Shown here in pieces: positions 1 through 61,640 of a DNA stretch of 64,000 nucleotides (its first letter is position 1; each line of letters starts with the position of its first letter). Position numbers and translations under genes: made by a program. The DNA comes from Lepisosteus oculatus (Eukaryota; Chordata; Actinopteri; Semionotiformes; Lepisosteidae). The stretch spans positions 13,965,532 through 14,029,531 of the forward strand of contig NC_090718.1 of the NCBI RefSeq assembly GCF_040954835.1. Direction: 5' to 3'. Below the pieces are notes generated by a model. That model was given only the letters and a program-made list of their open reading frames with translations. It did not search any database and was not told the DNA's origin.

Positions 1-344
1 AACTGACTCTGGAGAGCCCCAGTCCTGTGGGTGTCATGGGTCAACCTTTAAATCATACATTTCTGAACACTTCCAATCAATTTCATTTTGACAATGCTGG
101 TAGATGATGTGTTCAGTCATGTAGTTCAGATATCATTTGTCTTTTATCTTTTATTGGATTATTTAAAACAAACAGAATTTATTGGCAAGCTACATCCCCA
201 CCTGACACTGAATAAAGTAAACTTTAACTTAGCTAAATAAGTTGAAATAAACTTAAAATTTAAACCAAATTTTTTCACACAAATTTGACTCTGCTGACAA
301 TTAATAAAAACACTGTCTCGTTTGCCCGATTCATGTTCCTTTTT

Positions 345-650
345 CGCAGTGGTTAGCATTGCTGCCTTTCAGCGCTGGGGCCCTGGGTTCAATACCAGGG
401 CTACACTGTCTGTGTGGAGTTTGTACGTTCTCCCTGCGTTTGTGTGCGTTTCCTCTGGGTGCTGCGGTTTCCTCCTACAGTCCAAAAACATGCTGGTAGG
501 TTACTTGGCTTCTGGGAAGATTGGCCCTGGTGTGTCTTGGGATGGACTGCTGTCCTGTCCAGGGTGTCCCCTGCCTTGCGCCCTGCATTGCTGGGATAGA
601 CTCTGGCTCCCCCACAACAATGAATTGGAATAGGTATTGAGGAGATGGAT
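345..650 (+). repeat. tRNA-derived SINE
   Basis: Begins with a tRNA-like promoter head (GTGGTTAGCATTGCTGCC, then GGGTTCAATACCAGGG). It continues with the tail common in fish SINEs (CATGCTGGTAGGTTACTTGGCTTCTGGGA) and ends at GAGATGGATGGA. A minus-strand relative lies at 61.1 kb. Confidence 0.75.
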
Positions 651-765
651 GGAAGTTCCTTCTAAACCTCCGTGCCCAGCAAAATCAATGTGCTTAAGTG
701 CGACCGACACGTGAGCGCTCCCTGTTGAGTCCGGCCATGTGGCGAGGCCACTGCTAGAGCCTCAC

Positions 766-965
766 CTGCGGGACAGTGGTACCCAGAGGGGCAGGGCAAG
801 CAGGCCAGCTGGGAGGCCACACTGGGGCGGTACGTCCCGGCCTCGCACGGCCTGCAGCTCTTGTCCCGCGAGTCTCTGGGACCGCTGACGTTGACCGGCA
901 TGAATCCGCCATCGCAGGACAGCGGTGCAGAGCTGTTTGCAGGGCAGTAGTAAGGAAATAAGCAC
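766..965 (-). CDS. Exon 83: last repeat exon in the window
   Basis: Encodes [35 protein letters not shown] and [10 protein letters not shown]. It ends in phase 1 at GCAG|GTGAGG, so at least one more exon lies to the left of base 1. Confidence 0.92.
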
Positions 966-3900
966 CTGCAGGATGGGAGAGAGGTCAGAAAGGGCTCTCT
1001 GCGCTGTGTCACGAGACATACATACATACAGTGGGCTTGTTACCGAATTCTTCATGCAGACAAATTCACACTAATTCCATTGAACACTGGCTATGTAACA
1101 GTGCAGAACACAGACAATTAGAAAATTGTGATCGCTATTTAATTTAGAGCACTTTACAAGTGCATTTTATGGCTATAGTATAGCGTTTCATTTTCTCAAC
1201 CTTTTCGATGGTTCCACTGAGATATCTTTAATTCTTCAAAATGGTTTGTATAAACTTCGGGGCTCTTTAAAATAGCCAGAAGAATAACGATTGAGAAAAT
1301 TAAAACACCCTTATAAAAGACGAACACATTATCTAATGTCTTGTCATTCTGACTCGGCAGAAAGTGCCGTGTGGCAGGTCTTGGACTAATCGTTCTGGGT
1401 TGTAGTCAACAATTTAAAACCAATTCTTTTTTAAAGAAATCTTCGGGTCCAGTTCATCTGAACGGATATCGTGAACGCTCTGCTTTGGCGAAACGCAGAG
1501 TGCCGGAGGCGAGAGTCAGGGAGGACTGGTCTGGACTGGTACAGCCTGTGGATAAAACCGACGTACTGCTGCTGTGGTGTGTCGTACGTCTCTGATCCCT
1601 CGGCACAGAAGTAGCCCCCTGGGCAGCTGGCAGGAAGTCCCGTCTGGGGTCTGCAGTATGACCCCGCCCTGCATGGAGTCTCCATCATGGAGCCTAGACA
1701 GCAAGAGCATGGACTGACTCTGATGACACACAAGTGAACTCCTCAGTTCTCACTGCTCAGCATTACAACACTTTAGTTCAGCCATGAGGTCTCTAACTGG
1801 GCTGCTGACTCAGTGTTTGACCAGGGTGAGATTCTGCCTGGACACTTTGCTCTCGGAAATCCAGCTTATCTGAAACGTGTCAAGTTCCGCTCAACTGTTT
1901 GGCGGTGTTGATGTTGCATTTTTTACAGTGTATCCTGTAATATTTTTTTAACTTTCTGTTTGAAGCCCTTATGCTTGGAATCCTTTGATATTAGCATGCC
2001 AAACCTCTTAACTGCACAGCGTTCATGTATTTTGTGTTTGCTGAAAGTAAAGGCATTCTTTGTATTTCATCTTTCATGCAACTTTCCTTGTCATCTTGAA
2101 CTCCTCTGGACTTGCTTCTTCATGAGAACCTCAAACCAATAAAAAAGTAAAGTTGATAAAGATGTTGTGGCTACTTTTAAACAGAACACTAATCTAAGAC
2201 GGAAGAGTTATCTTAAAACAAATGGGTAAGTGAGATTTAAAATAGCCATTTTTCACAATTTGTCAAAAAATGAATTTGAGTGTCAAGATCAGTGCCATTC
2301 AAGGTCACGAACAGCCCAACTGGTGGTCATGATCATTATTTTTGAAGGACATGATCAGTTTTATCAGAGGTCACAATCGATGTCTTTGAAGGTCATCAGC
2401 ATCACTAAAGGAAGGAGTGAGATGCCTGTGGAGGGAGTGTACCTGGTGGACACTGGTAGGCAGGGCGGCAGGGTGTGCCATAGATATTGGGCCGTCCTGT
2501 CTGGCCGGGGTCAGGGCAGTAAGTACCAGCCCGGCAGGGTTCACACTGGCTGGGAGAGGCTCCGCCGGGCTGAGGTCTCATGGTGCCAGCAGGGCAAGGA
2601 ACAGGAGAGCCCGTCCCACTGCACCAGAACCCTGGGGGGCAAGGACGTCCCGCGTAGTCTGTCAGACCTGGGGGAAAGGAGACACTTCAGCTGTCGTAGT
2701 TCAGGTGGTGTCACGGATGTCAGAAGGGACGAACCGTGGAGAGGCAGGAGAGCGTAAAAGACCCTCTGCTTAGCAGCGAGACAGGGGTTAGCCCAGGCTC
2801 AGCTGTTCAGGAAATGCCGTATAGAAACCTATCCCCTCAGGCAGGAGACGTGGGGCCACCTGGTACTAGACGGGTTTCAGGACATCCGAACATCAATGCT
2901 GAGCCAAGGCAAATGAAAATCCCAGAAATATATAACCCCACAGAGAGGGAGAGAGACACCGGAAGGACAGCAAAGCACCGGAAACAAGAGACAGGACAGA
3001 GAAGGAGCGCCCTCTGGCTGCAGAGGGTGTGACAGGTGGGTAGCTGCGTCAGGATGTGTAGGCTGCAAAGGAACAAGTAAAGATTAATTCCACGCTAATA
3101 AGAGAAGAAAAGAAACATTTCGGCTGTGGAGCCTTCTTCAGGTGTGGAACTCCCAGAGTAATTCCAGGAGATCCAGGTGCGGCACCCGAAAAAGGCTCCA
3201 CGGACAAAACCTTGTGTTTCTTTTCTTCTCTTTTCAGCGTGGAATAAACCTTTACTTGTTCCTCTACAGCCGTCGAGAGCAAAGCAATGCACGAGAAAGA
3301 ACACTGCTGCGTAACCCAGGCATAAGGCACTGAAAATGCATGCGACTGACATTGCATTAAACTGGACCTGCCTTGGATTTGTGTACTCCACTGTCTCCAC
3401 AACTTCATCTTATTAAAATAAATTCTTTCCATTTTAAGATCATTTCTGTGTAAGATGCTGCGGAATGGTGGTGATGACACTGGACTGGAGAGATCGCACA
3501 TGTACAGTACAGAATGCACATGAAGCCCTCCAGGATGCCTGCAGGCCTGACCTGTGGAGTCGCAGTGGTAGCCTGCAGGACAGGTCTGGCACTCCCCCCT
3601 GCTGCCCGCTCCAGGGGCAGCTCTGTAGGTGTGGAGAGGACACTCTCTGGGTCCTGCTGCTCCCTCAGTGCTGTTGCCGGTCAGCTCATCACAGTAGTGA
3701 CCAGGAGGACACAGGTAGTGGGTTGGGTCCCCTACAGAGCCAGAAAGAAACACCCCTGTGTCTCACACGAGGTGGGATTGGTCACGCGATTAACCCTAGC
3801 GGGATCTATAACTCTGTCAAATGCTCTGGTAAAGGGGCTCTCAAAAGCTGAAAAAATAACTTACAAAGAAGTCATGATTCCTGCATGTTTTGTTTATTTA

Positions 3901-6900
3901 AAAAAAAAAACAGCAAATCATGTGAGGCAATGGTCCCCCAATGACGGTTTGCTTTGTGAAACATTGGCTTTGAGAGCTGTCTTAGTTTTCGGAGCACTAA
4001 GACTCAGACCTGTGAAGCGGGAGGAGAGGGAGGGTGTGAGCGCTGTACCTTCTTTGCACCAGTGTTTTGCTGGGCAGGGCACGCAGTCCTCTCTCCTGCT
4101 GGCCCCTGGGGAGGCTCTGATAGTGTGGGAGGGACAGGCCTTGGGCTGCTCGGAGCCCTCTGGACAATAGAACCCTATAGAAAACAGTAACACTTGGCTT
4201 TTACTGTAGCTCAGAATTTTGTATTAGAAAACAGTATAAAACAGTGATCTCCAGCCCTCATTCTGGAGGGCAGGTACATCTACAGGTTTTCAGTAAATGT
4301 GGGCTCCTAACATGAATCAGCTCATTACTGTCTTAATGTGGACCTAGTGAACAGCTCCTCAGGTGCTGGTGCTTTAAAGAGACACTGCAGACACACTGGG
4401 CTTCCAGGATCAGGACTGGGAGCCCCTGATATAAGATGCAATGTGAATAAATGGGTACTCCTGAATGAGTGATGGGCTCTTCCCACAGACGGTTGGGATC
4501 TTGTTGGTAACGAGCAGAAATGCTTCATTAAGGTCAAGGCGGTGATGGGATGTACCTTCAGGAAGACACCTTGAGGCGCAAAAGTCGGGAAAGACCATAC
4601 GAAACCAAAGAAGTTGTCCCTTTTAAGCAGCTGATGCAAAGAAAGAGCTCAGCCTCCTTCTTCTGCTAAAGTGAGTTACCTGCCGGGCAAGGGCTGGCAC
4701 AGCTCTCTCCCCCCTCGCACCCGCTCCAGTCCTGCAGCACCGGGCCCTGCGGAGTGAACTCGGAGCTGCCCGACACACACAGGAACCCCGCTGCGCAGCG
4801 CCCCTGGATCCTGCCTCCCCTGGGCAGCCAGCGAACAACAGCAGCTTCAGGGGAACTTCATCGTCAACACTAACTCTCAGGTCGCTCCACTCATCCTCAT
4901 TCATTCCAGGAGGCTGCATGCAACAGCCAGACAAAGCTGCGATCATGGCAAATACAGTCACACCACTGACTTTCTCCATTCAGCAATCACTTTGTGCATT
5001 ACTGGCTATCTTGGAATGGAGGAGAGGACAGGGATATGAGGATACGGAGCACAAAGGAAAGATAACGTGAAGACGGGCAAGAGAAGTTAAGAATTGGGTT
5101 TTCGAAGAAATGGGAATCTAGGTAATTGAATTTACAGGAATTGCGTGTGTAACGACTACGCCCCTGCGTATAACAGGGATCTCAGCCGCCTGGGCTGATG
5201 GAGGTCTCCTTTAGCTCAGCCGGCAAGTTCCCTGTTGCGTGACGCCGGAGACCTGGGTTCTCGAACAGGCAGTGAGGGAAGAACTGACAGGGCAGGAGCA
5301 GCAAGGGTGGAAACCCCAAGAACCGTTACAACGGTGGCCCTAACGGGGATGGCCCTTCGCCGAGGACGGCGAATTAAGCAGGGGGAGAATATAACGAATA
5401 CGCCCCTGCATATAACAGGGATCTCAGCCACCCGAGCTGAGGGAGGTCTCCTTAAGCTCAGCCGGCAAGTTCCCTGTTGTGTGATGCCAGAGACCCACGC
5501 AGTGAGGGGCAAACTGGCAGGACAGGAGCAGCAAGGGCAGAAACCCCAAGAACCGTTACACGTGGAAGGCAGAAATCGATCATGATTCATTCATCTATGA
5601 ACGGAAAGATTTAGGGACAAATGAGTTGGTCATCGGGCTGGACAGATCCCACAGATATGCAGTTATAGAATCAATCTGTTTTTTGGCCACAATGCCCATT
5701 TCCTGCAGTAACAGGATGCAGTTTCTTACTGATCCAGTTGTTACACAGACCTCTGGGACCTCACGAAATGAGGTGAGGGGTACCTGCAGAACCTCCCTGG
5801 GGGGCAGGGCAGGCACTCCTGCTCCTCCTGCAGCCCCCCCTGCTCTGGGGGGGTGAATGTCCCACGGGGGCAGAGCTGAGGAACCTGGGTGGCTGCAAGC
5901 ACAAGCACAAGGCACTCGAGTACATAAAGATAGCAGAGCTACGAAACCAACCTGCGACACAGCTGTTGTACTGTATCCACAGTATGTGTGTGCATGTTCT
6001 ACCATTTTTGTAATATTCTAATCCTGTCTTTTTACGGTTTTAAAGTAAAGTAAAAGAAAAGCGGAACTAGGGGAATGCTGTAGAGCTGAATTCCCGATAT
6101 ACATCGAAAGAAAGGAGCGAACTGTAAAGAAAATGGCACTTTTAAAAGCTATGATCGTCTCCAAACTCAACTGAGATGAAATGAGTGAGTGGCGGAGATG
6201 CCTGCTGCAGAGGTATGAGTAAGTCTACACTGTACCAGCGGGACAGTACGAGTGTGGCGGGCAGGAATGGGGGTCTCCAGTGACAGCCTCTTCACAGTAG
6301 AAGCCAGGCCGGCAGGGTACACAGTAGTCTGAGCCAGGGTTAGGCTGGTACTCTCCTGTGGGGCAGGGGACTGCGTGAGCTGAGCCGGGGGGGCAGTAGT
6401 GACCCTGAGGAAACAGATGTTCAACAGTGATCGTCGATGTCAGGATTATAACCTAATTGAAAAAAGTGCCTAATTCAGGTCCTAGAGGAACACCACACAG
6501 CAGGATTTCCAGGTGTCTTTCAATAACATCCTTTCTGCAAACTTGGGAAAAAAAACAAGCAGACAATTACTTGGGTAATTTCTGAGTCTAATGCAAAGAA
6601 AAGCAGAAGACGTAAGCAGCGTCATTCTGTGCAATCACTATATACTGAATAGTTAAGAATATAAAGTAAACCCATGTCCAGTGACAGCATATTTGTGTTC
6701 CATTGCAATCCATATTACTGTAACTTAAGTTGTGAATCTGGGAGGTTCATCGACTCAGCGGGCTTGTTAATTGGATTAACTTGTTTCAGCATACACAGCG
6801 CAATTAACCTCAAGTCGCTCTCACACCAACACCGCTCTGAGCTCTACAGTTAATGACTTGGCATTCTGAAGGTACTGCACGCGACTTGCAGGAGCCCTCT

Positions 6901-9900: not shown

Positions 9901-12900
9901 GCAATGAGAAACAAATATAACAGAAAAGTAGTACAAGCAAAGAGCTCAAGAGCAGAACGGTCCATCCGCAGCCGGAGGTCAAGCACTGGGGTGCAAGAGG
10001 AACGTAACCAGTTACCCCGAGTCGCAGGGCGGCGCCTCCTCCGGGTGTGTCAGGGCAGGCCGGTCACAGAAGCGTCCCGGGGGGCAGGGCTGGCACTGCT
10101 CCGCCCGGCTCAGTCCCAGGAAGCTGGAGTAGGAGCCCGGGGGGCAAGGCAGGGGGTAGCCCGTGCCAGCCGGGCAGAAATGACCCGCAGGACACAGGTT
10201 CTTTCTGGCCGAGGCGCCGTCCGCCTTCACCTGGAGACATGCAGTACAACAGACAAGGCCTGAGAAGCAGCGGAGGGGCTGCTGGTGCAGCTTTGTCCAG
10301 ATCACGGTCTCTTTCACCGGGCCAGGAGAACAAGAGTTAGGAAGAACAGGAGGAGGGGAACAAGGACAACAGAATCAAACAAAACACACCGGGTCGGAAG
10401 GAACAAGAAGCAGAAAGGTTACAGGAAGGTACAGTACAGTGTGAGCTTCGGAGGCAGAACTACTGCATGTGGAATAATAGAATTTCAGCCCACAGTGTGC
10501 AGATACTGTACCATATACTCCGTGGAGTTGGGGCTGCTGGATCCCGGGGGGCAGTAGTAACCAGCCTGGCAGGGCCCTGTTGCCTGGAAGAGGCCATGGA
10601 AAGCGCAGTACATGCCTGTGCAGAGTCAACGACAGCATAAGCAGGAGGAGAGAGCGTCGCAAGACACTCAGAGACAAGAGACCTTCCACGCTGAATCAAA
10701 CCATCTGGTCTAGCCGTGTTTCCCTGAGGCTTTTCACGCAACAGCTGCCGCAGAAGCTTACCCGGAACCCTACTGGCACCTGACCTGCTTTTTAGTGTTT
10801 TACCAGTTAGCTCTATAACTGTTTCTTCTACAGCTTTCGCAAACCCCGTTTGAGTTTTGACAGTTTTCTCCATCTCTGAAGGCTGTATGATTGCACAGGG
10901 CTGTGATACAAGGAGGGTCACTCCGGTGCACAATTTTACCAAAGTCCTCTTTTCTGAAGCCCCATGAGCCCCTGCACCTGTTCAGGCTGATAAGCCAACC
11001 CATAACTGCTGAGAACGAGCAATAACTGATGAAGTCTTAAAATGACAAATTGTGCGGCCTGAGGTTTAAAGATTTCACCTGCCGGGCAGAGCTGGCAATC
11101 CAACACAGAGGTGGCTCCACTCTGAGGTCCGATGGTGCCCCGGGGGCAGGGGTATTCAGTGCCCACTCCTGTCCCAGGGGGGCAGTAATACCCTCGAGGA
11201 CAGATGGCTGGCTGCACCACCCCACCTTCTGCACAACAAGGAAATACACAAGACTGAGAGTCATTGTTAGCACCGCCTTCTCCTGTAGCTGCATGTTGCA
11301 CAAACTAACTAATGGCACAGTAAATGTCAGTTCCTGGTATCAGTAATGTGATCACAAATGAAAGCGTTATGATTTGAACAAATAATATGCATGTACTGCC
11401 AACATCTATATCACCCTGCAATGTATAATTGGCAACCCACTAAAGCTCAGCAGGTATGACCCTGGTCCGTACCTGGATGGGAGACTCCTGGGGAAGCTGA
11501 GGTTGCTGCCAGAAGAGGTTTTAGTGGGACCAGTAGGGGGCGCTCACCCTGTGGTCAGTCTGGGTTCTAAAGACCCAGTATAGTGTAAAAAAGGTGCTGT
11601 GTCTCCCTATGAAATGTAAAACTGAGCTCCTAACTCTCTGTGAGTGTTAAAAATCCCAGAGCATTTCTTGAAAAGAGTAGGAATGTTACCATGATGTCTC
11701 TGCCAAATTTCTCCCTGACCTTTACCAATCATGGCCTCCTAATAATCCCCATCTCTAAATCGGCTTCATCACTCTGCTCTCCTCCCCACTGAGAGCTGGT
11801 GTGTGGGAAGAGTACTGGTGCATCATCCATGTGGATGCTGCACACTGGTGGTGGTGGAGGGAAGTCCCCATTACTTGTAAAGTGCTTTAAGTGGAGTGTC
11901 CAGAAAAGCACTATACAAGTGTAAGAGTAAAAAAAAAATATATATAGAAAGTTATGCATCTGCCTCTGTGTTTCTGCACATCGAATTTACCTTCCAGTGA
12001 GTGGCAGTAGAATCCAGCAGGGCAGAGGTCACAGGACTCCCCTTGTTGCTGAGCTTGGAAGGATCCTATGTCACAGGGCTGGGGTGCTGGAGACCCCGGG
12101 GGGCAGGAGTGCCCAGAAGGGCAGCGGAAAGCAGCGGGAGTGGGGGAGGTCTGACCAGGAGGGCAGTAAAACCCCACAGAGCACAGGCCGTCCGGAGCAG
12201 CGCTGGCTGAGCCTGAGGGCAGATGGACAAGGCAGAACTGCAGCAGCAGCACCACAAGAGATTCCCCGGGCAGTGCTGTACACACCTGCAGGCAAACCCC
12301 CAAGACCAGACTACAGGCACACGTCGCAACAGAATCGGTTTGCAGCGTGCCGAGAAATGAGCTCCTTTGTATGAAGCAACAGCAGAACAATAAAAATATA
12401 TTACACTGTATATATGATACTGTATATAAGGTTGCTGCTGGAAGAGGTGTTAGTGGGGCCAGCAGGGGGGCTCACCCTGCGGTCCACGTGGGTCCTAATG
12501 CTAATGCCCCAGTATAGTGACGGGGACACTATACTGTAAAAAGACTATCCTTCGGATAAGACGTAAAAACGAGGTCCTGACTCTCTGTGGTCATATTTTC
12601 CCATTGACCCTTACTAATCATGGCCTCCTAATAATCCCTATCTTTAAAAAAATTGGCTTCATCACTCTGCTCTCCTCCCCACTGAGAGCTGGTGTGTGGT
12701 GAGCGTTCTGCTGCACTATGGCTGCTGTCACATCATCCAGGTGGGGCTGCACACTGCTGGTGGTGGAGGGGATCCCCATTACCTGTAAAGCGCTTTGAGT
12801 GGAGTGTCTAGAAAAGTGCTATATAAGTGTAAGCAATTATTATTATTATAATATTAGATTTTTGATCATATATGTGTCATGTTTCCCCCCGCAATGCTAG

Positions 12901-15900
12901 CTTACTCCCCAACACATCAATAGGGAAAACTAAACAATGTGGAAAATATATTTCTATTACTCTGCTGTTATATCTTCCCATGTAATATATACAGTATATG
13001 CCATATATTATACTATTATACACTGTACCAACTTAATTTTTAAAGGAACAGCAATACTGATCGATTGTCTCACCCTGGCAATACTGCCCAGCGGGACACA
13101 GTGTGCAGTCTGAGCGCTGGCTGTTCCCAGTCACAGGGCTGAAAGTCCCAGCAGCACAGGGGATGGCGGTCTGTGTCCCTCTGGGGCAGTAAAACCCAGC
13201 AGGACAGGGTCGCTGTTCCGGGCTGCTGGAGCCCCAGTCACAGAGGAACCCAGCCGAGCAGCTGCCTGTGGAAACACAGCGGCTCTTCACCGACACGTTT
13301 CAGTCCTGATCTTCCCCTGCGGGTGACCGACCAGTGACGCTGCTCAAGAAGACAGGGCTTGTGTTATAAAAAGAACACTCCAAAAATCCTGCTGTTTTTT
13401 TTTGGCACCTCGGCTGCAGATTGTTTTAGGTTGTGGTCTGATGGGAAGCGTGCACTTAATCTGAGGCACAGTCCTACCTGACACAAGCCCGTGCTGGCAG
13501 TAGTGCCCTCGGGGACAGGCCATGCCCGTGACGTTGTCTCTGGGGTTGGGCAGCCGGGCCCCAGCAATGCAGAGAAACCCGGGCGAGCAGGTTCCGGTGG
13601 GCTCCGCAAGGCCTTGCGATCCACAGAACCGCCCCTCCGGACACTGAGAGCACTGAGCTGCAGCCCCAACAGCACGAGTCACAAGAGAGCCACAGATACA
13701 GTGCTACTCTCTGCTCTGCCAAACGTACTAGCATTCTGGAGGCCTGGAAGTGTTTTTTTACTAGAAATAACCTCTAAAAGAAGATAAGATCACTTTATTA
13801 GCCATATACAATTTCTAGCATTAGGAATTTGTCTTTTCGCATACCCCAGCTTGCTCTCCATGAGACACACAGACAGGGAGAGAAGCTTGTGGTCAGAGCG
13901 CAGGGTCACCCATCTATACAGCGCCCCTGGAGCAGTTGGGGTTAAGGGCCTTGCTCAGGGGCCCAATGGAGTAGGATTCCTCTGCCGGCCATGGGATATG
14001 AACCGGTAACCTTCCAGCCACAGGCGCAGATCCTTAGCCACAGAGCCACCGCTCCACCCCAACGTGTGAAAAGCAAGCAAAGGGAGTCCCTCTTTCTCAA
14101 CTGCCAATATATTTGGAGCTTGCTGATCCAAGAAGCTCTTCCAGCCCATCACTGAAAGATCTCGACAACGTGACACATCAGGAAACAAACTCTAATCATC
14201 TGCCTCGCTCTTCTGTTTCCTGGCTGCTTGTACTCCACGCCTGTCTTAGCTAATACCAGCACGAGCCATCAGCAGCTGGAAGATGAGACAAGCTGGCACG
14301 AGGGATTCAGTTGTAAGGGCTTACCTGAAGAGGTCAGGCCCAGGATCCTGCTGTATGTGCCCTCTGGGCAGGGGTTCCTGGTGCCAAATGGCGTCCCTCT
14401 GGGGCAAAAGTGCCCAGAAGGGCAGGGCAGGGGGACAACCGCGCCCCGAGGCTCCAGGACAGCAGGGCTGCAGTAGAATCCGGGAGGACAGGATTCACAT
14501 TCCGGCTGGCCGCTCAGAGCCTGGTACCAGCCTGGCATCCAAACACAGGAGAGCGTCAACAGCCGCCAGCGAGATGAAAGAGTGACCGAGTCTAAGCGCT
14601 GTTGTAAAAGGACGCAAGAAATACTCCTCATTCTCTCAGCACCTGCGGGGCAGGGAGTGCAGTCAGCCCTGGCTCTCCCCCCACCCTCTCGGCGATGTGT
14701 GCCCTCCGGACAGGGGGAGGGGACGCCACTGCCCCCCTCACAGAAGTGCCCAGGGCTGCAGATGCCCCCAAATGCTTCCGAGGTAGGAGCAGAACTTGGA
14801 GACCCTTCGAGGCAGTAGAAACCTGGAACAAGTGTTCAGGAAGAATGAAAGCACACTGTTCGGGAGAGATGTGATATCCACTTAACAGTGCAATCTTTAA
14901 CAACAAGCACAATAATAATAAATTGAATTAACACTTATATAGTGCTTTTCTGGAAACCTCTCTCAAAGAGTTTAACAGGTAATTGGCCAGCACACCAGGG
15001 TACCATCCCCACTCTTTTTGAGAAACGCCCTGGGGTTTTCAATGACCACAGAGAGTCTGAACCTCTTTTTTTACATCTCATCTGAAGGACAGTGCCTTTT
15101 TTACAGTATAGTGCCCCCGTTACTATACTGGGACATTAAGACCCACACAGCCTGTAGGGTGAGCGCCCCCTACTGGCCCCACAAACACCTCTTCCAACAG
15201 CAAGAGCACTATAAAAAAATATAAATTCTAGATGTATATTTTAGATCGATTAAAAGAAAAACATAAAAATGTTTTACAAATGAGTTTTCCCCAATGTCTC
15301 AGACATGCAATGTCATTTATAGTAAAGAGGCACACAAGGAAAACAAACAGCAACTTGTTTCCAGATCCAGTTCCAGCCAGCTGCTCCGCTCCAGGCTTGG
15401 CTGAGCAGGGAGTCTCCATGGTTACCTGGCAGGCAGGGGCCCGTCACTGCTGTCTGGCCCGGCTCGGAGCAGAAGTACCCCGGCTTGCAGACCTGGCACT
15501 GCGACGGGTCCGTCAGCCCAGACTTCTCGCTGTAGCAGCAAAGGAGAACCGCAGTGAGCGCGGAAACAGCGCCGCTCCCTGGCGCACAGGACGGGAGACA
15601 GACGCTGAGGAATTAACCTCTCGTCTCTCAAGCAAAAGCAAAACTCTTTGACGTGCGGATTGAAACGGACGTTCTCTGCTTTGCTCAACGTTCTGTTGAA
15701 AACGCCAGTCCAGATACGGACTGGCAAATAGAGAGTTAACAGATGCAGAAATCATCACTGCTCTGACCGTGTGGTTTGGTAGACAGAAATGATGCTTTGG
15801 AGTTTTTTATAGCTCCCTGAAATCGACCCCCCTACAAACAGCACAAACGATGAAACCCACCTCATTCGTTAGTGCTACAGTACGTTCTTGCAGTTCATAA

Positions 15901-18900: not shown

Positions 18901-21900
18901 TGACTCACGTCTCAGTGTCCCGGGCTGGCAGGACAAGGGGTTTGGGGCGCCCTGGGGGCAGTAATGTCCTGGGGGGCAGGAAGTGGGATGGGGCACTGAC
19001 GCTCCTCTGGGGCAGTAGAATCCCGCTGAGCAAGGCCCAGCTGGAGCAGAGAGGCCGCTCCGATCACAGAACCAGCCCAGGTCGCAGGGCACGGGGGTGG
19101 GGGAGCCCTCTGGACAGTAGAAACCTGCAAGTCCATTGACACAGCCATCGTGAATCGTGAATTTCAGGTGAGGAGTAAGACGAAAGTGTTTCTCTCCACA
19201 AGTTAAAGAACTGGCTATACACTAAAATATACTGGAATGGGTTGCATGAAGTTGGACTGCAATAAACAGAAAAAAGTGAAACGGTAAAGATTTGTACAAA
19301 AGTGTAACAAAGTCACAGTGGACGGGAAATTCACAGATCAGTTAAAGTTCCGCATTAAAATCCAAATATTTACCTTTGGGACAGATGTCTCCCGTGAAAT
19401 TAGTGCAGTGCTTAGTTGTGTTCTGCGGTGTTCTCAAAGTGTTAGGCATGGTCTGGCCTGAGGTATTGACCTGGAAACTGTTTTTCAACCAGTCAGGTGA
19501 ACCCCCATCCCTGATCTTGTCTGCGCAGGGACCGTCTGTTTAAAGACAAGAACGTTCACTTCGCTTCCACTCTCAGCCGAACTGGAGTTCCTCAGGAATA
19601 CCGCGTCAGGGATCCAGCGGCAAACACACTCTCACCTGGCAGCTCAGAGGAAATGGTGCACTTGCAGACAGTGCTGCAGAAGACCAGCTCAGCAAAGGTA
19701 GCTTTGAACATGACATCCATGGAACACATGAGCTCAGTGGGACCCCTTTGTGGGGCAGGAGTGGCAGTGCCCCCTGTACAGTAATGACCAGGGGAGCAGA
19801 CACCTTTAGAAAACACAGCAGGCAGAAAGATTACAGTGAACTGGAAGGTAATTTATACTTCATACAATATCTATTAGTATTAAACAGTAAAACAGTCGGA
19901 ATACTCCAATCTGTAACCATAATGCAGTCCATATTTAACTACCCTTATGAGTCAGTAAGTAAACAAGTAAATAGCAAGTATTTGTTTGGAGAATTTTTAC
20001 ACATCTGTGCTTCATTAGGAAAAAGAGAGCAAAATATATTAATTTATTATTACTGATATAAATTAATAATTGTATAAAAACATTTGATATAATCAATAAA
20101 TGATATAAAAACATTTAACTCAGGTCAGCAAGCCTCTGTCCAGCAATATATATCTCTAGTACAGTTATATAATTTCAGCTCATTTCAGTCAGACACCGAA
20201 CAGCCAGGTGACCTGGAGAAATTGTGCAGCACAGTACCAGAGATCTGACTGGAGCCCTGTGAGTCACAGTATCTCCCGGGGGGGCAGGGCAGACAGTGCC
20301 TGTGTGCCCTGGCGCCAGTGTCAGGCTGGTAAGTACCCGCTGGGCAGGGCAGAGGATAGCTGCTACTCTCTGGACAGTAATGCCCCTGGGGGCAAATGTC
20401 TCCAAACTCCTTCAGCACAGGGGCAGGCTCCTCTGCTCCCAGAGAGCAGTAGTGACCTGGCAGAAGACCCAAGGCACAGACACGCGAGAAGTCATTAGCA
20501 CAGCCTCTCTCCCTGTTGTAACAGAATTCGAGATCCAGGACTATTCATTCTTGATCTGGTCATGAAAAATGCCTCATTGTTAAAAAAAGCATTAGAATAA
20601 ACAAGGTTTCCAATGAAAGGAGGCCACTAAGCCCATCTGGTGGATAATCGATCTGAGGATCGATAATGTGAAATATATAGTAATGTGCAAATAGATCAAG
20701 ATGTTCTGCATTCATTGCCCATTGAAAGATAGTGTCCTGGTGAACATTTTTACATCTTTCATCATCAATTCATGATTATTACACTGGATTTAGATATGGG
20801 GGAATTTCAAAGAAAAGGAATCCTATCAGAATGTTACATCTCTGATTGGTAGCCAAATGTTAATTTCCCTAATTCATCATAGACTGAAAAGAACAGACTG
20901 TTACGGGCACAGTCCATATCCTGAAACAAGTCTAAGCTTTGGGTCACAGTACCTGAAACACAGGGCCCGGTGGGCCGAGTCAGTGCGCTGGTGCTGCAGT
21001 AGAAGCCAGGGGGACACAGGGAACAGTCCTGTGCCGATCGCAGACCCCCTGTCTCGCCCAGCCTCCCCAGAGGGCACGGGGCAGGAGAGGAGGAACTCTC
21101 CGGGCAATAAAAACCTGGTGATGGAAAAATCAGAAGAATGTCACGTATTTACTAGAACTGTAACAAATATTTCATTTGCACATGCAGAGATGGTTCCCGT
21201 TAGGAAGGACCCTCAGCCATAGTTATAAAATAGTTGTCTGAATACAACACCTCACAAACATTGCAACTAAAGGATACACAATGCAAGTTAAATTAGTTGC
21301 ATAAATCTTTCAGGAGGGTTTTTGGTGACCCTGTAGCAATCTCGAACACTAGGATGGATGGGCGTTTGCCCGTTATGCCTTCTGGCACTTAGGGCCAGCA
21401 ACGTCCTCTTGCTGTTCCCGTAACACTTGGTTTTTTATGGGACAGGGTTGTTAGCCTTGTGCCCAACCTGACGGGAAGAGTTCTTTCCGGACCCTATGCA
21501 GACGACACAATCCAGGGTGGAGTGAGAAAACACAAGGAAAAAAGGCATGCAGGAGATGGGGATGAAAACAGGGGGGGCGTGTCCATGGAGCGCCGGTGGT
21601 CGGGGGAGGTGTGGCCGAGGCAAACGATCCAGGGAGGAGTCAAACCGGAAATCCAAAACAGAGCAAAAGTCCAAGGCCAGGAGATCCATCCGAGACAGAC
21701 GATTAAAAGAAACAGAACCGGGTCGGGACCGGCAGGGGAAACGGGAACAAGAAACAGAAACTTAAACCATAACGGAGCCAGGCGCATCCAGGTCCCGGGA
21801 TCGCATGATGCAGGAACCAATGGAGAGCCTGGAATAGCGTCAGCGTCTGGCTTTTAAGGGGGAACTGAAAAGGTGGCTGGAACAGGGAGCAGGTACAGGG

Positions 21901-24900: not shown

Positions 24901-27900
24901 GGGAGTCTGGGAGGCACTGCCCTGGGGGCACATGTGTCCAGCCGAGCATGTGAAGGAGACGGGGCTGCTGGACAGCTGTCCAGGGGGACAGTAATAACCT
25001 TCCCTGCAGGGCTGAGACGGGGCAGACAGTCCTGAGGCCTCACAGGAGAATCCTAGAGATGCAAACACAAACAAGGAATCCAGGACGTGCTTTGGGACTA
25101 ATCCCAGAAGACATGGAAAGACAGATCCGTGTGCCTTTCAGTGGGAATGCCTCCACCCACTGCTCCTGTTCTTGCTGTAGCTGCTGGCTGTGAAAGCAGA
25201 GGGAGGATAATTTCCACCTGTGAAGGATGAGGACGACATTCTCACAACGCCTAAACACAGGGCTCATCTCGAAGCAGGGGACAAATGATCGGTCACTGGG
25301 CTCTACTGACACAGTCTCTCAACCAGTAAACACGAGGATTTAGGAATTTCAAGAACTTAATTGGAAACTCCATGTCAGGGAACCAATTGGTAGAATAGGA
25401 GGATCCTTATGCATAACCGTGAATCTCACAGGATGTGGAGTAGCACAGGGACAAACCAAAATACATAACCCAGGGGCTTGGTCCAAAAGGGAGGCAAAGA
25501 GTCTAGTAACAAGGGAAATCCAAAAGGCAAGAGCAAAGTTAAGTACTAGGCAATAGGTCTGGAAATGCACACAAGAGAGTTCTACTAGAGGCTTCTCAAT
25601 AGTGAGCAAGGGTAGGTGTGTTAGGGAAGTTTAAATACTGAAAGGAAAGGGCTGTGGTTGGATAATTGGTTTGGGAGTGAGAATTTGTGGAATCTGGTGC
25701 ATGTGAGAATGTGATGGGTTCAATTAGGAGTGAGATTGTGAAACAGTGGGTTTGGGAATGCAACGCCGTTTGCGAGGGAGAGTGTGGGGCGTGACACTTC
25801 ATTCAAAAACTGCCATAAACATTTACTGTAACTTTTTACTGCAACCGAAACAATTTTGTGTAAATTGCCAAAATGAGCCTGAATTTAACTCACTCTCCTC
25901 TTAAATCCAAATCCTCTTTCCTTGTTAGACCCACTTTCCTTTTAAATTTAGTGGTTTAATATGTGAGCGCGGCAGAGGGCAGAAACACAGACCTGCAGGG
26001 CACAGCAGGCAGAGAGAGAGAGCTGCGTTCCTGGTGGTGTTGCTGTAGTGACCAGCTGGACAAGCCTGTGGGACCCCAGACCCCTGGGGGCAGTAGTGAC
26101 CTCTGGGGCAGATATCACCTGTCAGGCCATCCTGAGGAAAGGGGGTCACTGCCCCAGCCTGGCAGTAGTGCCCTGCGGCACACGGGCCACTGGCCTCTCT
26201 CAGGCCTGAGGAGGCACAGAATAAACCTGTGAAGACATGAAGACATGACAGGAATAAAACGAGCAAGAAGTGAATTTCCTGTACTTCTAGAAACCAGTCT
26301 CTAAGGCTCAAAGGTGTATTGAAGTATGTTATTAAAAAAACAAATACTTTGCTTCAGGAAAGAAGATAAAACTCCAGTGAAGTCTACAGGTGCAGTTTTG
26401 TCCTTTCTAGAGTATTAAAATGCTGCTAATTTCACTATTTGTGGAACGCGTGTGGCAGATTTGGAGTCTCAATATACAGCAACAAATGCCAAATGAATAT
26501 GTCTGTAAACATGAATTCTAAAGATGCAAAGTGGCACAGTTTTTACAGAATTTTTCAGCTGGGACTGTCACTTGGGATTCAGGCTCTTGACAAGAGTTAA
26601 CGTGGTTCCCTGGACTCACCTGGTGGGCAGGGCAGACAGTCCTGCAGACTGCGTCTCTGGGTCAGCAGGTTGTGTGTGCCAGGTGGACAGGGGTACTGGT
26701 TCTGGGAGCTGGTTCCTGCCGGGCAGTAGTGCCCTGGAGCACATTCATGACCGGCGTAGGAGGACGTGTTGCCAGGGCAGAAGAACCTGTGCAGAGACGC
26801 AGTCGGTAGTGTCAGGCACAAGGAGAAAAGCAGGATAAATCACAGAACAGCACTGCTGATACCATGAGTCCAGGCAGACTTATTTCACAGGTGGGGTGTA
26901 ATACAGCACATATTTTCATATTTTAAAAGCCTCATATCCCCTGTCGCATGTTCTCTGTCAAGCCATTTTGTGTATGAATGGAAAACTGTCGGGCCCTGTT
27001 TTTGTTTACACTGGGATTTCAGCAGTTATCACTAGGCTTCTGGTCTGACGGTGGCGCTCAGTGGAGTGGGTCAGTTCGGCAGGGACAGAAAGAACAGGTA
27101 CTGTAGCCTGTGGAAACGGGACTGGATCTCACCCTTCAGCACAGGGGCTGCAGCTGGCCTGGCCTTCCAGTGTGCTGCTGGTCCCCTCGGGACAAGGCTG
27201 AGGAGCAGCACTGCCTCTGGGGCAAAAATACCCTGCAGCCAGGAAGGCCACAATGAACAAGTTAACAACAGAAAATATGCCGGTGCTTCAGTACAGAACA
27301 ATAACACAACATCTTTTTTACAGCATTCTTTATAACTGAATCGCCACTCGGGCTGCAGAAACACCAGGCGACGGTTACCTGGTGGACAGGGCCCGCCCTT
27401 CTCGTCTCTGATTGGATTGTTGGGGAGCACCGCCCCCTGGTAACAGTAGAATCCTTCCCAGCATTCCCCCGTTGGCGAGGTGAGACCAGGAGCACCGCAG
27501 TAATGACCAGGAGGGCACAGCATACAGTTCTCCTGGACAGGACAGCATCACCACAGTTAACCCAGGACCAGACAGTCAACAAGTACATGTCTGCTGCACA
27601 CCACTGATACAGAAAATGTCATTTTCAATGAGGCGCACATCCAGTGGTGCCATATTCCAACTCTCACGTCCCATATTTTCCAGTAAAATTCATTTATACA
27701 CAAAAATAATAACCGATTTCATGTAAAAGCTGATGAAAAAAAGTATGCTTATGATTAAAAAAAGTATGCTTATGAATAAAACCAAGACAAAGTGTAGTGC
27801 ACATGACTATCGACTGTATTTCAATACTGTTTGTAGAGCTGCAGCACCACATAAGTGGACAGACAGTCTCCAGTGTAAACAAGGCAACAACTGCAGTGGC

Positions 27901-42900: not shown

Positions 42901-45900
42901 TCAGGACATTGCCCTGTCTAAAACACAGAAATGGGTAAAGTTTCACCCTGATAGCTACCGCAGCCAATAGTAGTAATCTACAGAAACCAGACCATTCGTG
43001 CAGAGCAGAGTAAAAGCCTTCAAGTGCCTATTATTCAGTGACCTTGTTAATACACAGTTAAATGAAAGCAGGACACAAATTGTTTCCACTGAAGCTGGAC
43101 AGGCAGATTTTTTATTGAGGGACTTTTCTGAAATGTCTCTAGCTTCCTTGATTACAGGAAAGTAAGACTCTCTGACTAATGGCACTGAAAGCTTAAGTTG
43201 TGCTGGAACTGTTTTTAAAAACTGTGCAGAAGGGGGGGGGGTTGGTGACGTTTTTGTAATGCGATTATTTGGTTTTTACCTAAACCCTGTGTACTGCGCG
43301 TCTGTCTTGCCTTGTTAGGCTGAAATGTATTCAATGGAACTGCTGATCAGTGAAGATGTCTCTCCCTACTTAGAGAGGGAGCTGATCTGACAACATTGAG
43401 AGACTACAGTATCTGTCCCTAAAGTTTCTTATTCTCCTGCAGTGTGAGAACACCAATGACTATACCTTAAGTTTTTATTCTTCTGCAGACAATGCAAGAG
43501 TACATAACAATCCCCAAAGTTCCTTATTCTCCTGCAGAGACTAAAGGAGCTCTTTCTGTGTTCAGAGTGCTTACAGGCTGGGAGAGGCCATGAATGTGAG
43601 GCTGCTGATCCGAGTAGCAGTATTTTCCCTCTGGACATGGGGAGCAGTCTGAGAGGTCACGCAGTCCTGGCTGGTCACTGTAAGTCCCATTCGGACAGGG
43701 CCTTGGATTGGGATCCTTGGGAACAAAAACATAACATGTTGGTTCCAAAGGCGAAGTTCTACCATTTTCTTTTTCTTGACAAGTATATTAATGAGTAGAT
43801 TTGCAATATCTGTTTTAAGACTTGTTCCGTCTGGGAGGTTTTACAGCTGATGAAGTTCGAGCAGGTTGCTGAGTCAGCATGTGTAGGCTGCAAAGGAACA
43901 GGTAAAGGTTTATTCCATGCTGAAAGGGGAAGAAAAGAGAAACAATGTTTCAGCTGTAGAGCCTTCTTCAGGTGTTCAACGTTAATTGATGTTTTCCCAT
44001 CATGGAAGATCATCATATTCTGTATGTGCATCACAAGGGTATCATGAAGCCTGGCTGAAAGTGGGCTCAAAAACTGATCAAGCTGCCGATTAATTAGATA
44101 AAATGGCTAAAATGGGATAGCCCCAAAATCCCAGTGCTGGAAAACCCAGATGTTGACAAGTGCTGTTTTAGAACGCCCTGCCCTGGAAGGCATACGGCCC
44201 TTAGAGACTGAGGGACAGGTTACACCAGGACTCAGCAGTGTCTCTTGGGGATGGTCCCAACTGTTAATATTGGGGAAAGTACAGTAAATTCTAATAAAGA
44301 TGGTGCACAAATGTGATCTGAATACTTTGGCAGGGATCTGGGATTTTCTGTTTATGTCGCATACCTTGTTTGTAAATCTTGTAACTTGTCTGTTGTAGGT
44401 TTGTGTTGTGTCTTGCTTACTGTGTGAATTGTATTATTAATAAATGTTTGTTTAAAAAAAAAGATGAAATGGCTGGAGTGCTATGACTTTCTGAGCTCCA
44501 GATCTGGATATACTGTCCCAGAGCGACTCCAGAGTTTGTCAGAGCGAGAGCCAGAGTTTGCTCAGGAACTAAACAAGGATGAGTGATCTGCAAATTCCCC
44601 TGAAGCGGCACAGTGTGTGCAAAGGCAGAGCAGGGTCAGGGACAGGTCAAGAGGAGCTGTGCTGTGCTCACAATGCTGCCCCCAGGACAGTAAAACCCTT
44701 TGGGACAGAGGATGGCGGCGCGTTGGGGTTCCCTGTCCAAACCCGCTGAGCAGATCAGCCCAGCTGGACACACCATCGTGCTGAGCATCGCTTCCCGGCT
44801 GGTCGTCTCGTGACTGCAGTAGTGTCCCGGGAGACAGGGCGAACACGCAGCTGAGCCCTGATCCTTAAGAGCAGGAACACAAAAGAACGAGAATAAGAGC
44901 ATGCACTCACGAAACCCCTCCCCACAGCCATTGTGCAGAGAGTCCTACTTCACAATCACCGCGCCGATATCGGAAGTGTTTGCCCTGTGCTCGTCCTTTC
45001 TCTTGTGTTCCCTTGCTTTGTGCACAGGAGGCTGGGAGGCCCTTACTGAATAGCTGCCAGCCCCGCAGCTGTGGGGCTGGACGGTGGCCAGGTGAGGACA
45101 GGAGTAGCCGGCAGGACACAGGCTGCATTCCTCAGCTTGCTTCCCTCCCTTCTGCCTGCGGAAGGTCGACCTAGAAGCGTGGAGAGAGGACAGTGGCCCT
45201 GAGCACCACACAAAAATAATAATTCCTTAGACTTGAGCGCTTTTCTGGACTCTCCACTCAAAGCGCTTTACAGGTCATGGGGATCCCCTCCACCACCACC
45301 ACCAGTGTGCAGCCCCACCTGGATGATGCACCAGTACTCTCACCACACACCAGCTCTCAGTGGGGAGGAGAGCAGAGTGATGAAGCCAGTTCAGAGATGG
45401 GGATTATTAGGAGGCCATGATTGGTAAAAGCCAATGGGAAATTTGGCCAGGACACTGGGGTAACTCCCCTACTCTTTTCGAGAAACTCCCAGGGATTTTT
45501 AATGACCATGGAGAGTCAGGACCTCGGTTTTACATCTCATCCGAAGGACGGCACCTTTTTTACAGTATAGTGTCCCCATTACTATACTGGTGCATTAGGA
45601 CCCACACAGACCGCAGGGTGAGCGCCCCCTACTGGTCCCACGAAGACCTCTAGCAGCAACCTTAGCTTTCCCAGGAGTCTCCCATCCAGGTACTGACCAG
45701 GCTCACACCTGCTGAGCTTCAGGGGATTGTCAGTGGTGAATTGCAGGGTGATATGACTGCTGGAAGAACACACAGCTCTGCTTCTCTGAGTTGAGCCGTC
45801 CTGAGACAGGAAGTCCAGACGCAGAACAGGGCAGAGGCACAGAGACAGCAGCGTCACACACCTTTGCCTCTGGCAGCATGCACGGCCCGATGAAGACGAT

Positions 45901-54900: not shown

Positions 54901-57900
54901 ACTCTGTTGGGCCCCTAAGCAAGGCCCTTAACCCCAGCGGCTCCAGGGGCGCTGTACAATCTCTGACCCCAGCCTCTCTCCCTGTCTGTGTGTCTCATGG
55001 AGAGCAAGCTGGGGTCTGTGAAAAGATAATTCCTAATGCAAGAATTTGTATAGGGTTAATAAAGTGATGTTATTATGATTATCAAGGCATTTATTTCCTT
55101 TACAACTGCTGACATTTTCTTCCCTAGAATAGTTGCACAGCTGTGAATAATTTCTTGGCATTTGACCATAGCCAGAGAATTAAAATTGTTTTCAAGTAAA
55201 CAGATGTCAGGATTGAACTGGCAGGAAAAAACAAAAACAGCCCCAAAAGCGAAGATTTCAGTTTCCAGTTCAGCACGTTACTTTACAGCAAACAAGCCAC
55301 ATTCTCGGTCATGGCCAGTCAAAACCATTTAGCCTGACCAGCCCTCACTGCCCGGAGATTCAATTTCAGTGTTCTCTGTTTCTCCAGTAGGATTTTAACC
55401 TAGAATGCAGCTAACAGTAGAGAATTTCTCGAGCACAAGACTATTTAAAAATGAATCTGCTGCACAGGAAGCATGTTTCACGTGTGACAGTTTGAAGATG
55501 GAAAGTTTTCAGTTGAAAGGTTGCCAATATTTATCTTAAGGCTTGCAGGGGGTGTGGGAAGTTACTCTTTTGCAAGCACTGTTTTGCATTGGAGACACAT
55601 TTTCTGTAGAGATATTACGTAGGAAAATTCGTTTGAAAAGTTTCCTTGGTGTAGCGTCTGATGATGTGCTAGGATCAATGGCATTGTTTTTTTTTTAATT
55701 AACCGAAGAAAACGACAAATGGGTTTGGACTAGATGAAACGTCTGTATATTTTAATATTGAATCATGAAGAGGCTGAGGTTTAAAAATGCCTTAAAGTTG
55801 AGGGAACTGGTAAGAGATTGACTTGAGTTAAATGTTATTTTCCATTGTATTACAACAATCTAAAATATATGAAACTGTTATGTTGTTTCTGTCTTGCTGT
55901 ATGTTTCAATGTCAGGTCCAGCTATCAAACATATTCATACCAGTCTGTGGTTTTTCCCGTGAGTAATATATACAGTAACTGGTAAGAAAGGACGTTTTTT
56001 TTACAGGTCAGGATGGAAATTAATAATCACAGATGAGCCTTGACTTGTTCAACAACAATTTCCTCTCTGGATTAATGCAAGTTCTCCGCATTGTCGTGCG
56101 ATGTGCTAAGAATTTCATCTCTTAACTGTCTGTGCATTATGCCTCATTTGTCTTCTGCTGTGACTCTGGTTTTCCATAGTCTGCCTTTTCAAAAAGGCCA
56201 CTCTATGAAACAAACAGTCACAGCGACTCAAGTTCTACCAATAGCCCTGTTCACATTGTGCCACACATAAATTGTTTCCCTAGGATTGTAGCCTTGCAAT
56301 ATGTTTTATAGGAGGAAGCAATAATATAATCCAGGAGCTCATGTCATTTTTTTCCATCAGGGACATCAAGAAGCAACACAGATTGGACACTAAGCATCAG
56401 ACGCATAATTAGTGAAAGTGAAATCTGTAATGTTTGCAAAACAGGCTTATATTGCAGGGTGATTACTTATGCTTAGGTAAGACAATTTCTCTCTTCATTA
56501 TTCATTTATTGAGTGCTGCAGTTGTAGCTGACAGTCTCACAAGAACAAAAAAACGAGAGTCTGTTTCAGCTCAACCTCCTGCATCAGACAAAAGAGTCAA
56601 TAATAACTTCCTGTTTACAGATTGGATTCAAAAAGCGATTTCTGGCATCTCGCTAACTATAAAAGGCATTGGTTTTGTAGCTGTGTGGTTTCAGCTTTGA
56701 TAAAGAGAGACAGTACTTGTATTTTGTAAATATAAGTATTTTTGAAAGTGATTTGGGCCCGCTTTCAGCTGTTTCGAAGAAATAGTCTGTCTGGTCAGTC
56801 TGCCAGTTCAATCCTGGAGAGCAGAGAGCAGAGTCACAGTCCAGCAGGGTTTATACTGTAGGTCATCCTTAAGTAATTATCTTTTAAGTGATTTTGTTCA
56901 ATTAAGCAGTTCTTTTAAGTGCCTCAGCAGGTGAATCGTTCAATAAAGCAGTTCAAGGATTCATTGGAAATGAAAATCCCCTCAAACTCGAGCTCTCTCG
57001 TCTGGCCCTGCGTGACGTTACTGAAACAATTCAGTTACTAAATTTGATCAAAACATGTTCTGCATCTCTACAGAACCGAAGCTCTCAGGATGACTAATAA
57101 GCCCTGCTGGGCTGTGGCTCTCCAGCACCAGAGCCTGGATAGCCCAGGCGTGAGTATGTGTGCAATAGTATTTCCATGTTTTATATTTGTGCGGATGGAT
57201 GTGTCCTGTACCTCCTGGAGGTGTCCGTCGGGACAGACGAAGCCCTCGGGACAGGCCAGGCAGTGCAGGGTCCCCTCTGGAGAGTGCTGGCCGGGGGCGC
57301 AGGGCGTCTGCTGGCCAGTGTCCGGGTCGCAGGAAGCGCCGGCGGGGCAGGGTCTGCAGACGGCTCCCAGCTCAGTGCTCACAGAGCCGGGGGGACAAGG
57401 CTGCGCAAACACAGAAGAGCCAGCCTGCGTGAGGTTCTGGGGAACAGCTGCCTTTCCATAACGCGTCCGGGGTTCCTGCGCTCCGCCTCTTCTGTTCATA
57501 CCTAGACTCTTTTAAAGAAGGTTCTGGGTTTTCAGTTTTCAAGTTCAGAAGACATTGGACTCGTGCAAACCACAATGTGTACTCGATGCAAATAATATGA
57601 ATCAATAATATTAATTGATGCATATTTAATACACGAAGGTCAATGAATCATATACTTTAATATTAATTTTAAAAATAAATAATAAATGTGTATTTAATAG
57701 ACACCATTATTTTCAGTCAAAAATCTTAAATAATTTATGATTAAATAAAAATCTTTAAAAAATAATCTTAGATGGCACAGTAGGAATAAACAAGAGTGAA
57801 TGTTAATCACAATAAATTAGGTGGAGTGTAAACCCCTGCTTGAAGAAAAAAACTTTGTAAAGGTTTTGTAGATCTTATTACTGGATTTGTATTCAGTAGG

Positions 57901-60526: not shown

Positions 60527-61084
60527 TCCAGATCTTGCACTGTCTTCCCACTTCATGACGACCTTGCAGTAGCGCGGCGTTCTCAGTAACGGTTCGACAA
60601 GCACCTGCCCGGCTCAGGGTCTGATTGACGGTCAGGTTAGGAGGAAAGGGAAAGAGGGGATGGAAGAGCCAGAGAAACTGACACCCCAATCATTGAAAGT
60701 GACATTTAAGCTCCCCTGCAACATGATAGCGCTGGTGACAGCGGAGCCAGCGGAGGCTTCCAGGTGTGATCTTCCAGGAGTAGCATAGCTGGGGATTTCA
60801 GGTGTTGTGTTTGGCTTTGTAAGTCAAGTAGAGAGCCCACATCAGCTCAGCGGCTTTTTTTGTTCTCCTTTTCCATTCCTGTGGTCAAAATAATTCTGGG
60901 AGAAATGGGGGAACTTCTTGTACAGTCTGGAAAGCCCTTCCTCCAGCTCACCACCCCTCTGAAAATTCAAGACATTTCTTCTCCGGTTGTCCTCTTCCTG
61001 AAAGATATCGAAAATGTATTGAGCAGTCACCTGAGGAATGGGAAGATGGCGATGAGGAGGAGAAAGGGTCACGGGGGAGCAGGA

Positions 61085-61312: not shown

Positions 61313-61414
61313 ATAAAATGAGCATAAATATGACAAAAATAAAAAAATGACAGAAAATAAATACATTAGTGCTTGTTATAAAAGAGAATATTATTAAAGT
61401 TATATATTGTATAC

Positions 61415-61640
61415 GTTGCAAAGGAACAAGTAATAGGTTTATTCCATGCTGAAAAAAAGAAGAAAGAGAACACAACGTTTCGGCCGTGGAGCCTTCTTCA
61501 GGTGTGAGAGGTTCTTCACACCTGAAGAAGGCTCCACGGCCGAAACGTTGTGTTCTCTTTCTTCTTTTTTTCAGCATGGAATAAACCTATTACTTGTTCC
61601 TTTGCAGCCTACGCATGCTGACGCAGCTACCCACCTGAAC
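61415..61640. repeat. Near-perfect foldback palindrome
   Basis: The left arm from GTTGCAAAGGAACAAGTAAT to GTGGAGCCTTCTTCAGGTGT is followed, after about 10 bp, by its reverse complement (CACCTGAAGAAGGCTCCACG ... TTACTTGTTCCTTTGCAGCC). Each arm is about 95 bp and almost identical, so the palindrome is young or maintained. Confidence 0.8.

Follow-up and report, generated by a model that had tools for sequence, protein, structure and literature searches.

SCUBE and SVEP1 carry the Ephrin_rec_like module (Pfam PF07699), and the domains of SCUBE, SVEP1 and ELAPOR proteins include CUB, EGF, Sushi, VWA, pentraxin or ELAPOR-specific ones. Eph receptors have a ligand-binding domain, FN3, a kinase and SAM (PMC6993872). 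The Cysteine Repeat Modular Proteins (CRMPs) of Apicomplexa are described as surface-membrane proteins with cysteine-rich and ephrin-receptor-like modules, nine transmembrane domains, two EGF-like domains and, in one protein, also a Kringle; in Toxoplasma, both rhoptry secretion and invasion depend on a pair of them (PMC9815656). The mastigoneme-like protein MST1 of Chlamydomonas is a filament subunit with a predicted signal peptide, nine Ig-like domains and a polyproline helix. Its cysteine-rich domain (residues 1,176-1,853) spans 26 nm, holds 26 disulfides, dimerises, and builds the filament by antiparallel pairing; other algae may be able to do without the Ig domains (PMC11015965).

The window, that is, the whole stretch of 64,000 nucleotides analyzed here (C26:13,965,532-14,029,531), is best explained as containing at least the 5' three quarters of a single protein-coding gene on the minus strand, hereafter gene A. 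A search for the motif CPxGx[YFH]C gave 60 matches on the minus strand of the window and none on the plus strand, against a mean of 0.0 over 20 first-order Markov resamples. The exon chain was computed with a dynamic programme over splice sites and codons and a module HMM trained on the programme's own first pass, followed by hand corrections: the first pass gave 63 exons and the module HMM with retrained splice weights gave 84, after which four low-scoring exons (61196-61031, 19457-19374, 11505-11473, and 3062-2960) were removed, two boundaries were corrected, and exon 1 was added. The resulting chain has 81 exons, from 60556 to 766, in a single stop-free frame of 4,390 residues. The first-pass annotation had given 83 exons and about 4,365 residues in one open frame; the single giant frame stands, whereas the counts have shifted and a few weak exons are uncertain. 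Its description of CPxGxYC-type modules in almost every exon agrees with the in-frame module match of at least 10 bits found in 80 of the 81 exons, exon 1 being the exception.

The splice sites consist of 78 GT and 3 GC donors and of acceptors that are AG in all 80 cases, and the 80 introns measure 83-2,702 bases (median 496). Fifteen introns are in phase 0, 52 in phase 1, and 13 in phase 2. A glycine codon is split by 47 of the 52 phase-1 introns, as well as by 6 of the 13 in phase 2, and 27 of those 47 lie in a C..G context, which we read as the mark of an array assembled from exon units; this recount ruled out the idea that glycine codons are split by all of the phase-1 introns.

Exon 1 (60436..60556, minus strand) contains an ATG and a signal-peptide-like stretch that is finished by exon 2, and it ends in a GT donor in phase 1; an in-frame ATG at 60526 is an equally possible start. 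The stretch is only moderately hydrophobic (1.88 over 13 residues and 1.24 over 19) and falls outside the six top windows of the protein; the signal peptide is a putative one. Exon 2 (59164..59281, minus strand) holds the start of the mature ectodomain and the first cysteine module, and the module array, as delimited by the module HMM and the exon chain, occupies exons 2-81 (766..59281, minus strand). A symmetric 1-1 exon at 25993..26226 (minus strand) is representative, with a complete eight-cysteine module. The weakest exon of the chain is at 19636..19803 (minus strand), where the start of the module is sound and the second half, unlike a module, may be intron read-through. The final exon in the window, exon 81 (766..965, minus strand), has a strong GT donor (CAG|GTGAGG) at its 3' end, and an intron leaves the window 3' of it (1..765, minus strand). 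The gene had been placed within 766..60526, but this donor at 766 implies that it extends beyond the window on the low-coordinate side. One gene model included a further exon at 582-505, which was taken as false.

The array and one module beyond the window form 66 HMM envelopes with a median of 72 residues, which cover 95% of 4,510 residues, a figure that is partly circular because the module HMM was built from these same sequences. Cysteine occupies the eight module columns in 46/46, 42/47, 63/65, 65/66, 63/63, 60/60, 59/59, and 56/56 cases, or 454 of 462, a count that the alignment to the HMM favors by placing cysteines in those columns. The same 4,510 residues include 469 cysteines and 30 N-glycosylation sequons. 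In an alignment of 50 exons (A1), the 842 pairs sharing at least 35 columns have a mean identity of 38% and a maximum of 62%, and the mean is 23% once aligned pairs with both residues Cys or Gly are dropped. These identities, together with the kept cysteine frame, suggest that the module duplications are old, and the cysteine retention supports the earlier proposal that selection maintains the protein.

Ephrin_rec_like exceeded its curated cut-off of 23.1 in all five pieces into which the protein was divided (720-1,030 residues; 29-47 bits), with 2-4 stretches per piece passing E 0.1 alone. No other Pfam family rose above its cut-off in the 4,390 residues, which bears out the earlier view that Ephrin_rec_like modules dominate the protein without another named domain. 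A genome-wide PF07699 search (1.20 Gb, 813 contigs) placed none of its listed matches, at least 16, inside the window. From these low Pfam scores and the genome-wide result, the module of gene A appears to be a divergent Ephrin_rec_like variant, and its PF07699 scores are weaker than those of the repeats in the archaeal and other loci found with the consensus module (see below).

A profile search of the module against the PDB returned MST1 (8tx1) first, with an E of 1.5e-12 and 4 stretches passing E 1, followed by ELAPOR1 (0.048) and EphB2 (0.21); a single-sequence search with 289 array residues gave nothing at E 0.1. As in MST1 (1,987 residues in the PDB table), gene A has tandem cysteine-rich repeats in an extracellular part, and the two cysteine-rich domains are related by profile. 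Unlike MST1, gene A has about 66 modules and a hydrophobic segment. There is no Ig match in its array or modelled tail, and the longest proline run is 2 in the parts examined. With ELAPOR1/2, Eph receptors, SCUBE, and SVEP1, gene A shares the PF07699 module. Pfam models of the Eph ligand-binding domain, FN3, tyrosine kinase, and SAM had no match in the array or modelled tail, nor had those of CUB, EGF, Sushi, VWA, and pentraxin. Among ELAPOR-specific models, TNFR_ELAPOR1_6th reached a sub-threshold 14.9 bits against 33.2 in the array, and none matched in the tail. Gene A differs from the CRMPs in having one strong hydrophobic segment and no EGF-like or Kringle Pfam match. As the other defining domains of Eph, SCUBE, SVEP1, ELAPOR, MST1, and CRMP proteins were not found, we do not place gene A with any of them.

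A search of bacterial and archaeal assemblies with the consensus module, in which 82 stretches matched a pattern, led to three loci. The first, L001 (pond 1), is on a contig (G001:C260) from a pond metagenome, filed under a Verrucomicrobiaceae metagenome-assembled genome. It encodes a giant array and a hydrophobic segment, together with a cytoplasmic part of 490 residues in which no Pfam family matched. Since its modules lie in several frames along one strand, we infer that L001 is a eukaryotic contaminant, whose source could be either a protist or some small animal. A second giant homolog (pond 2, L039) lies on the opposite strand of this contig, and module HMM matches in the DNA of the two pond genes number 61 and 50, some of them overlapping or by chance. 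Rfam gave no match on pieces of this contig. Further apparently eukaryotic contigs with long Ephrin_rec_like arrays (C18, C77, C212, and C389) were seen in the same assembly when 150 of 461 candidates were scored, and eukaryotic contigs in an assembly so filed are likely to be bin contamination. The remaining two loci, an archaeal protein and a 3.4-kb contig, both have canonical Ephrin_rec_like repeats. The former (L002:6954-10295, plus strand), whose contig is filed under a Poseidoniales archaeon, is 1,114 residues long; 20 Ephrin_rec_like stretches (269 bits) were counted in it, and its C-terminal end is hydrophobic.

The flanks of the window were then considered over 40 kb on the 3' side of gene A and 20 kb on the 5' side, with negative coordinates counted from the window start. 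The C-terminal protein of L001, used in tblastn against the 3' region of gene A, gave five collinear matches on the same strand (E 2e-11 to 0.029): the last module (2e-11), the CTCLGLNRAFQQSDG exon (5e-7), the DHLFSSNPSWDFGAF exon (3e-5), the GRYVFLDNA exon (0.029), and the ELEDFNVKTLYDKLEDQT exon (3e-7). The 3' part of the gene was modelled without and then with bonuses from these matches, which preceded the bonus model. On the strand of gene A, the last module lies at about -138 to -350 (-155 to -313 when first located), the CTCLGLNRAFQQSDG exon at -833 (tblastn with L001), the transmembrane exon at about -5079 to -5241, and cytoplasmic exons continue to about -13,577 (both from the gene model). 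As modelled to date, the conceptual protein is 5,239 residues long, with some boundaries set by hand and a partial 3' model, and contains one outstanding hydrophobic window, VLGFLALVVVVLTTSALVL, with a hydropathy of 2.73 at residue 4,718 (next best, 1.44).

This extension into a last module, a membrane-proximal domain, a transmembrane segment, and a tail points to a membrane protein. Gene A thus probably encodes a membrane protein of predicted type I topology, with a minimum length of about 5,200 residues, and not the purely extracellular protein of the first-pass annotation, for the gene runs into a conserved non-repeat domain followed by the single transmembrane segment and a cytoplasmic tail. 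The modelled tail had no significant Pfam match (the best being SlyX, E 0.81). Against the PDB, the membrane-proximal part found nothing at E 0.1 (best 0.18), the distal tail had no match, and a three-sequence profile (A2) also found nothing at E 0.1 (best 0.55). None of the three A2 members matched NCBIfam, which is made for prokaryotes.

The C-terminal region of gene A aligned with L001 in blastp at 7e-22 (28% over 249) and 2e-17 (31% over 141), and its Smith-Waterman score of 227 compares with a maximum of 50 in 200 shuffles. The distal tail did no better against L001 than shuffles (48 vs a maximum of 70). A case for collinearity of module order between gene A and L001 was considered and dropped: overlapping windows gave a chain of 121 against a permuted maximum of 81 (100 permutations) and a Spearman coefficient of 0.30, but with non-overlapping units (49 in the fish, 19 in the pond gene) the chain was 14.0 against a mean of 13.5, a value reached by 102 of 300 permutations, and we regard the former as an artefact. 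Nor do we claim N-terminal orthology. The first modules are alike (C..xCPxGxYFxSx..NCxxCPVG) and the first anchors were reciprocal best with overlapping windows, but other L001 modules score equally well or better, and the best partner of the first unit is not the first.

A cytoplasmic query from L001 matched the same chromosome at C26:5.069 Mb (E 2.3e-8, 46%). This is the locus of gene B (C26:5.062-5.079 Mb), which has the same membrane-proximal domain as gene A along with a hydrophobic segment, and also DPxTG..VPI repeats and a distal region; the 52 kb before the membrane domain contain one clear module match. In blastp, genes A and B align at 2e-17, 2e-11, and 1e-8. Used in tblastn against the raw 3' region of gene A, gene B matched, in order, the last module (1e-7), the CTCLGLNR exon (0.07), the DHLFSS exon (6e-4), the GRYVFLDNA exon (3e-7), the LE.F exon (0.25), and the distal tail (3e-6), and also gave a repeat-derived match and one match out of order (E 0.55). 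Gene B is the one relative that supports the distal tail of gene A, its distal LLLLHCLAHIASG region matching ILLHSMAFIASG. A modelled gene B exon at 5077459-5077554 belongs to a dispersed repeat, its peptide recurring in reading frames of the window, and it is to be dropped. A genome-wide search with a membrane-proximal query recovered gene A (2.5e-42 and 6e-23) and, weakly, gene B (E 0.71); a further match on C10 (E 3.2) was taken as noise.

The best reading of these sequences groups gene A with gene B and the two pond genes in what would be an old family of giant cysteine-rich surface proteins, and we are confident of both the architecture of gene A and its place in this family. The first-pass annotation could name no ortholog; these three genes are now identified as relatives. 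The four-way alignment, in which the sequences of A and B are conceptual, has 49 invariant columns of 619. Identity to gene A is 32% for pond 1, 28.5% for pond 2, and 27% for gene B, and 49.5% between the two pond genes; the Smith-Waterman scores of A against pond 1, pond 2, and B are 309, 236, and 189, against shuffle maxima of 53, 56, and 58 (200 shuffles each). As A is about as distant from B as from the pond genes, the split of the family may be old. All four members have a membrane-proximal domain with the pattern CxPCG / SDGxCxC / D.G.F / G.Y / L.PD followed by one transmembrane segment, and a juxtamembrane LE.F motif, in its fuller form LE.F...(Y)D.L. A long cysteine-module array N-terminal to the membrane-proximal domain is found in gene A (66 envelopes) and in both pond genes.

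Cytoplasmic DPxTG..VPI repeats occur in gene B, pond 1, and pond 2, and are left outside the definition of the family. They had no convincing match in the approximately 40 kb 3' of the window (the L001 tail giving E of at least 2.9, and gene B the out-of-order match above). Gene A therefore differs from gene B, which has these repeats and one clear module, in its long array and in that the repeats were not detected; the pond genes share the giant array with gene A and differ from it in the repeats. The DPxTG part of gene B had no match in the PDB. Three scans of viral contigs, with the module consensus, a membrane-proximal peptide, and the pattern LYDKL[EQ]DQT, found no relative, and phage records gave no match. 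In UniProt, proteins of this kind bear a generic name, ephrin type A/B receptor-like, and an automatically named, unreviewed entry for gene A may well exist. No description of such a protein was recognized in open-licence papers searched with partly narrow word combinations.

Taken as a whole, the explanation that we favor, and consider rather probable, is that gene A encodes a giant type I membrane protein in which a rod of cysteine modules serves adhesion or sensing and is coupled to the cytoplasm. The mechanism itself, a stiff rod for adhesion or sensing, is proposed by analogy with MST1 and the CRMPs, and we would put it at somewhat less than an even chance. The disulfide-rich array would form a long stiff rod projecting from the cell, with a length of about 169-170 nm if extrapolated from the rise per residue of the MST1 cysteine-rich domain. 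It could act in adhesion or in contact or mechanical sensing, with the rods either associating laterally with one another, in the manner of the MST1 cysteine-rich domains, or binding a partner; the juxtamembrane motif and tail might pass tension or clustering to the cytoplasm.

The array could instead end or be cleaved near the membrane, so that gene A would make a secreted extracellular-matrix or filament protein that polymerizes outside cells like MST1. The array is by far the largest part of the protein, a filament subunit is its best PDB profile match, and splicing or shedding could release it. We nevertheless consider this unlikely, given the collinear continuation into a conserved transmembrane region common to the three other genes and the strong hydrophobic segment. 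Less probable again is that the model fused two or more adjacent genes, a secreted one made only of repeats and a separate membrane one. A computed chain of more than 80 exons can fuse genes, and gene B has just one clear module match before the same membrane domain; yet frame and phase fit across the 81 exons, no intron in the window exceeds 2,702 bases, and in each pond gene a single open frame (1,355 and 1,030 residues) spans the end of the long array as well as the membrane domain. That gene A is a decaying pseudogene with exons still open by chance would account for the few exons that need weak splice sites or GC donors, but is highly improbable, as 4,390 codons are stop-free (in a model that forbids stops) where the two shifted frames hold 47 and 89 stops, the GC3 of the coding sequence is 0.66 against an intron GC of 0.43, and the cysteines are kept.

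If the membrane-anchored rod is the right explanation, there is in a vertebrate genome a gene for a very large membrane protein whose family has not been described. No model in the domain library searched matches its membrane-proximal or its cytoplasmic part, yet the former is shared by a vertebrate and a pond eukaryote. To trace the family across eukaryotes and to ask which animals lost it, one would then use the conserved C-terminal domain as the handle and leave aside the noisy repeats. One could also ask whether giant cysteine-repeat rods work in the same way when cells adhere, in ciliary hairs, and where parasites sense contact. Slightly less likely than the rod mechanism is a family of giant single-pass cysteine-rod surface receptors that is older than animals, has persisted in lineages from microbial eukaryotes to a vertebrate, and is absent from current domain catalogues. 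The number and order of modules vary in it, the membrane-proximal domain and LE.F are constant, and this would fit a conserved force- or contact-sensing device.

Several other features lie in and around the window. The sole Rfam match in the window is 5S rRNA-like (45648-45764, minus strand, 44.4 bits), and no tRNA was found there. The match sits in a dispersed repeat, a 5S-headed SINE-like element, with related copies near 11392-11834, 15069-15203, and 63580-63977. A fold-back at 61412-61611 has two 96-nt arms that are 98% complementary and 8 nt apart, with related repeats at 3033-3271 and 43854-43980. Intron 1 contains an open frame (59767-60162, minus strand) that we take to resemble the end of a non-LTR retrotransposon reverse transcriptase. 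Some 39 kb beyond the window, on the 3' side of gene A, an exon matches the vertebrate sodium channel subunit beta-3 (PDB, E 9.3e-16), an indication of a vertebrate source, and the repeat families have a fish-like character. On the 5' side of gene A, an immunoglobulin open frame on the plus strand (L016:7769-8161) matches C1-set at E 3.9e-10, and a second open frame (L016:108-539) has sub-threshold Ig matches.
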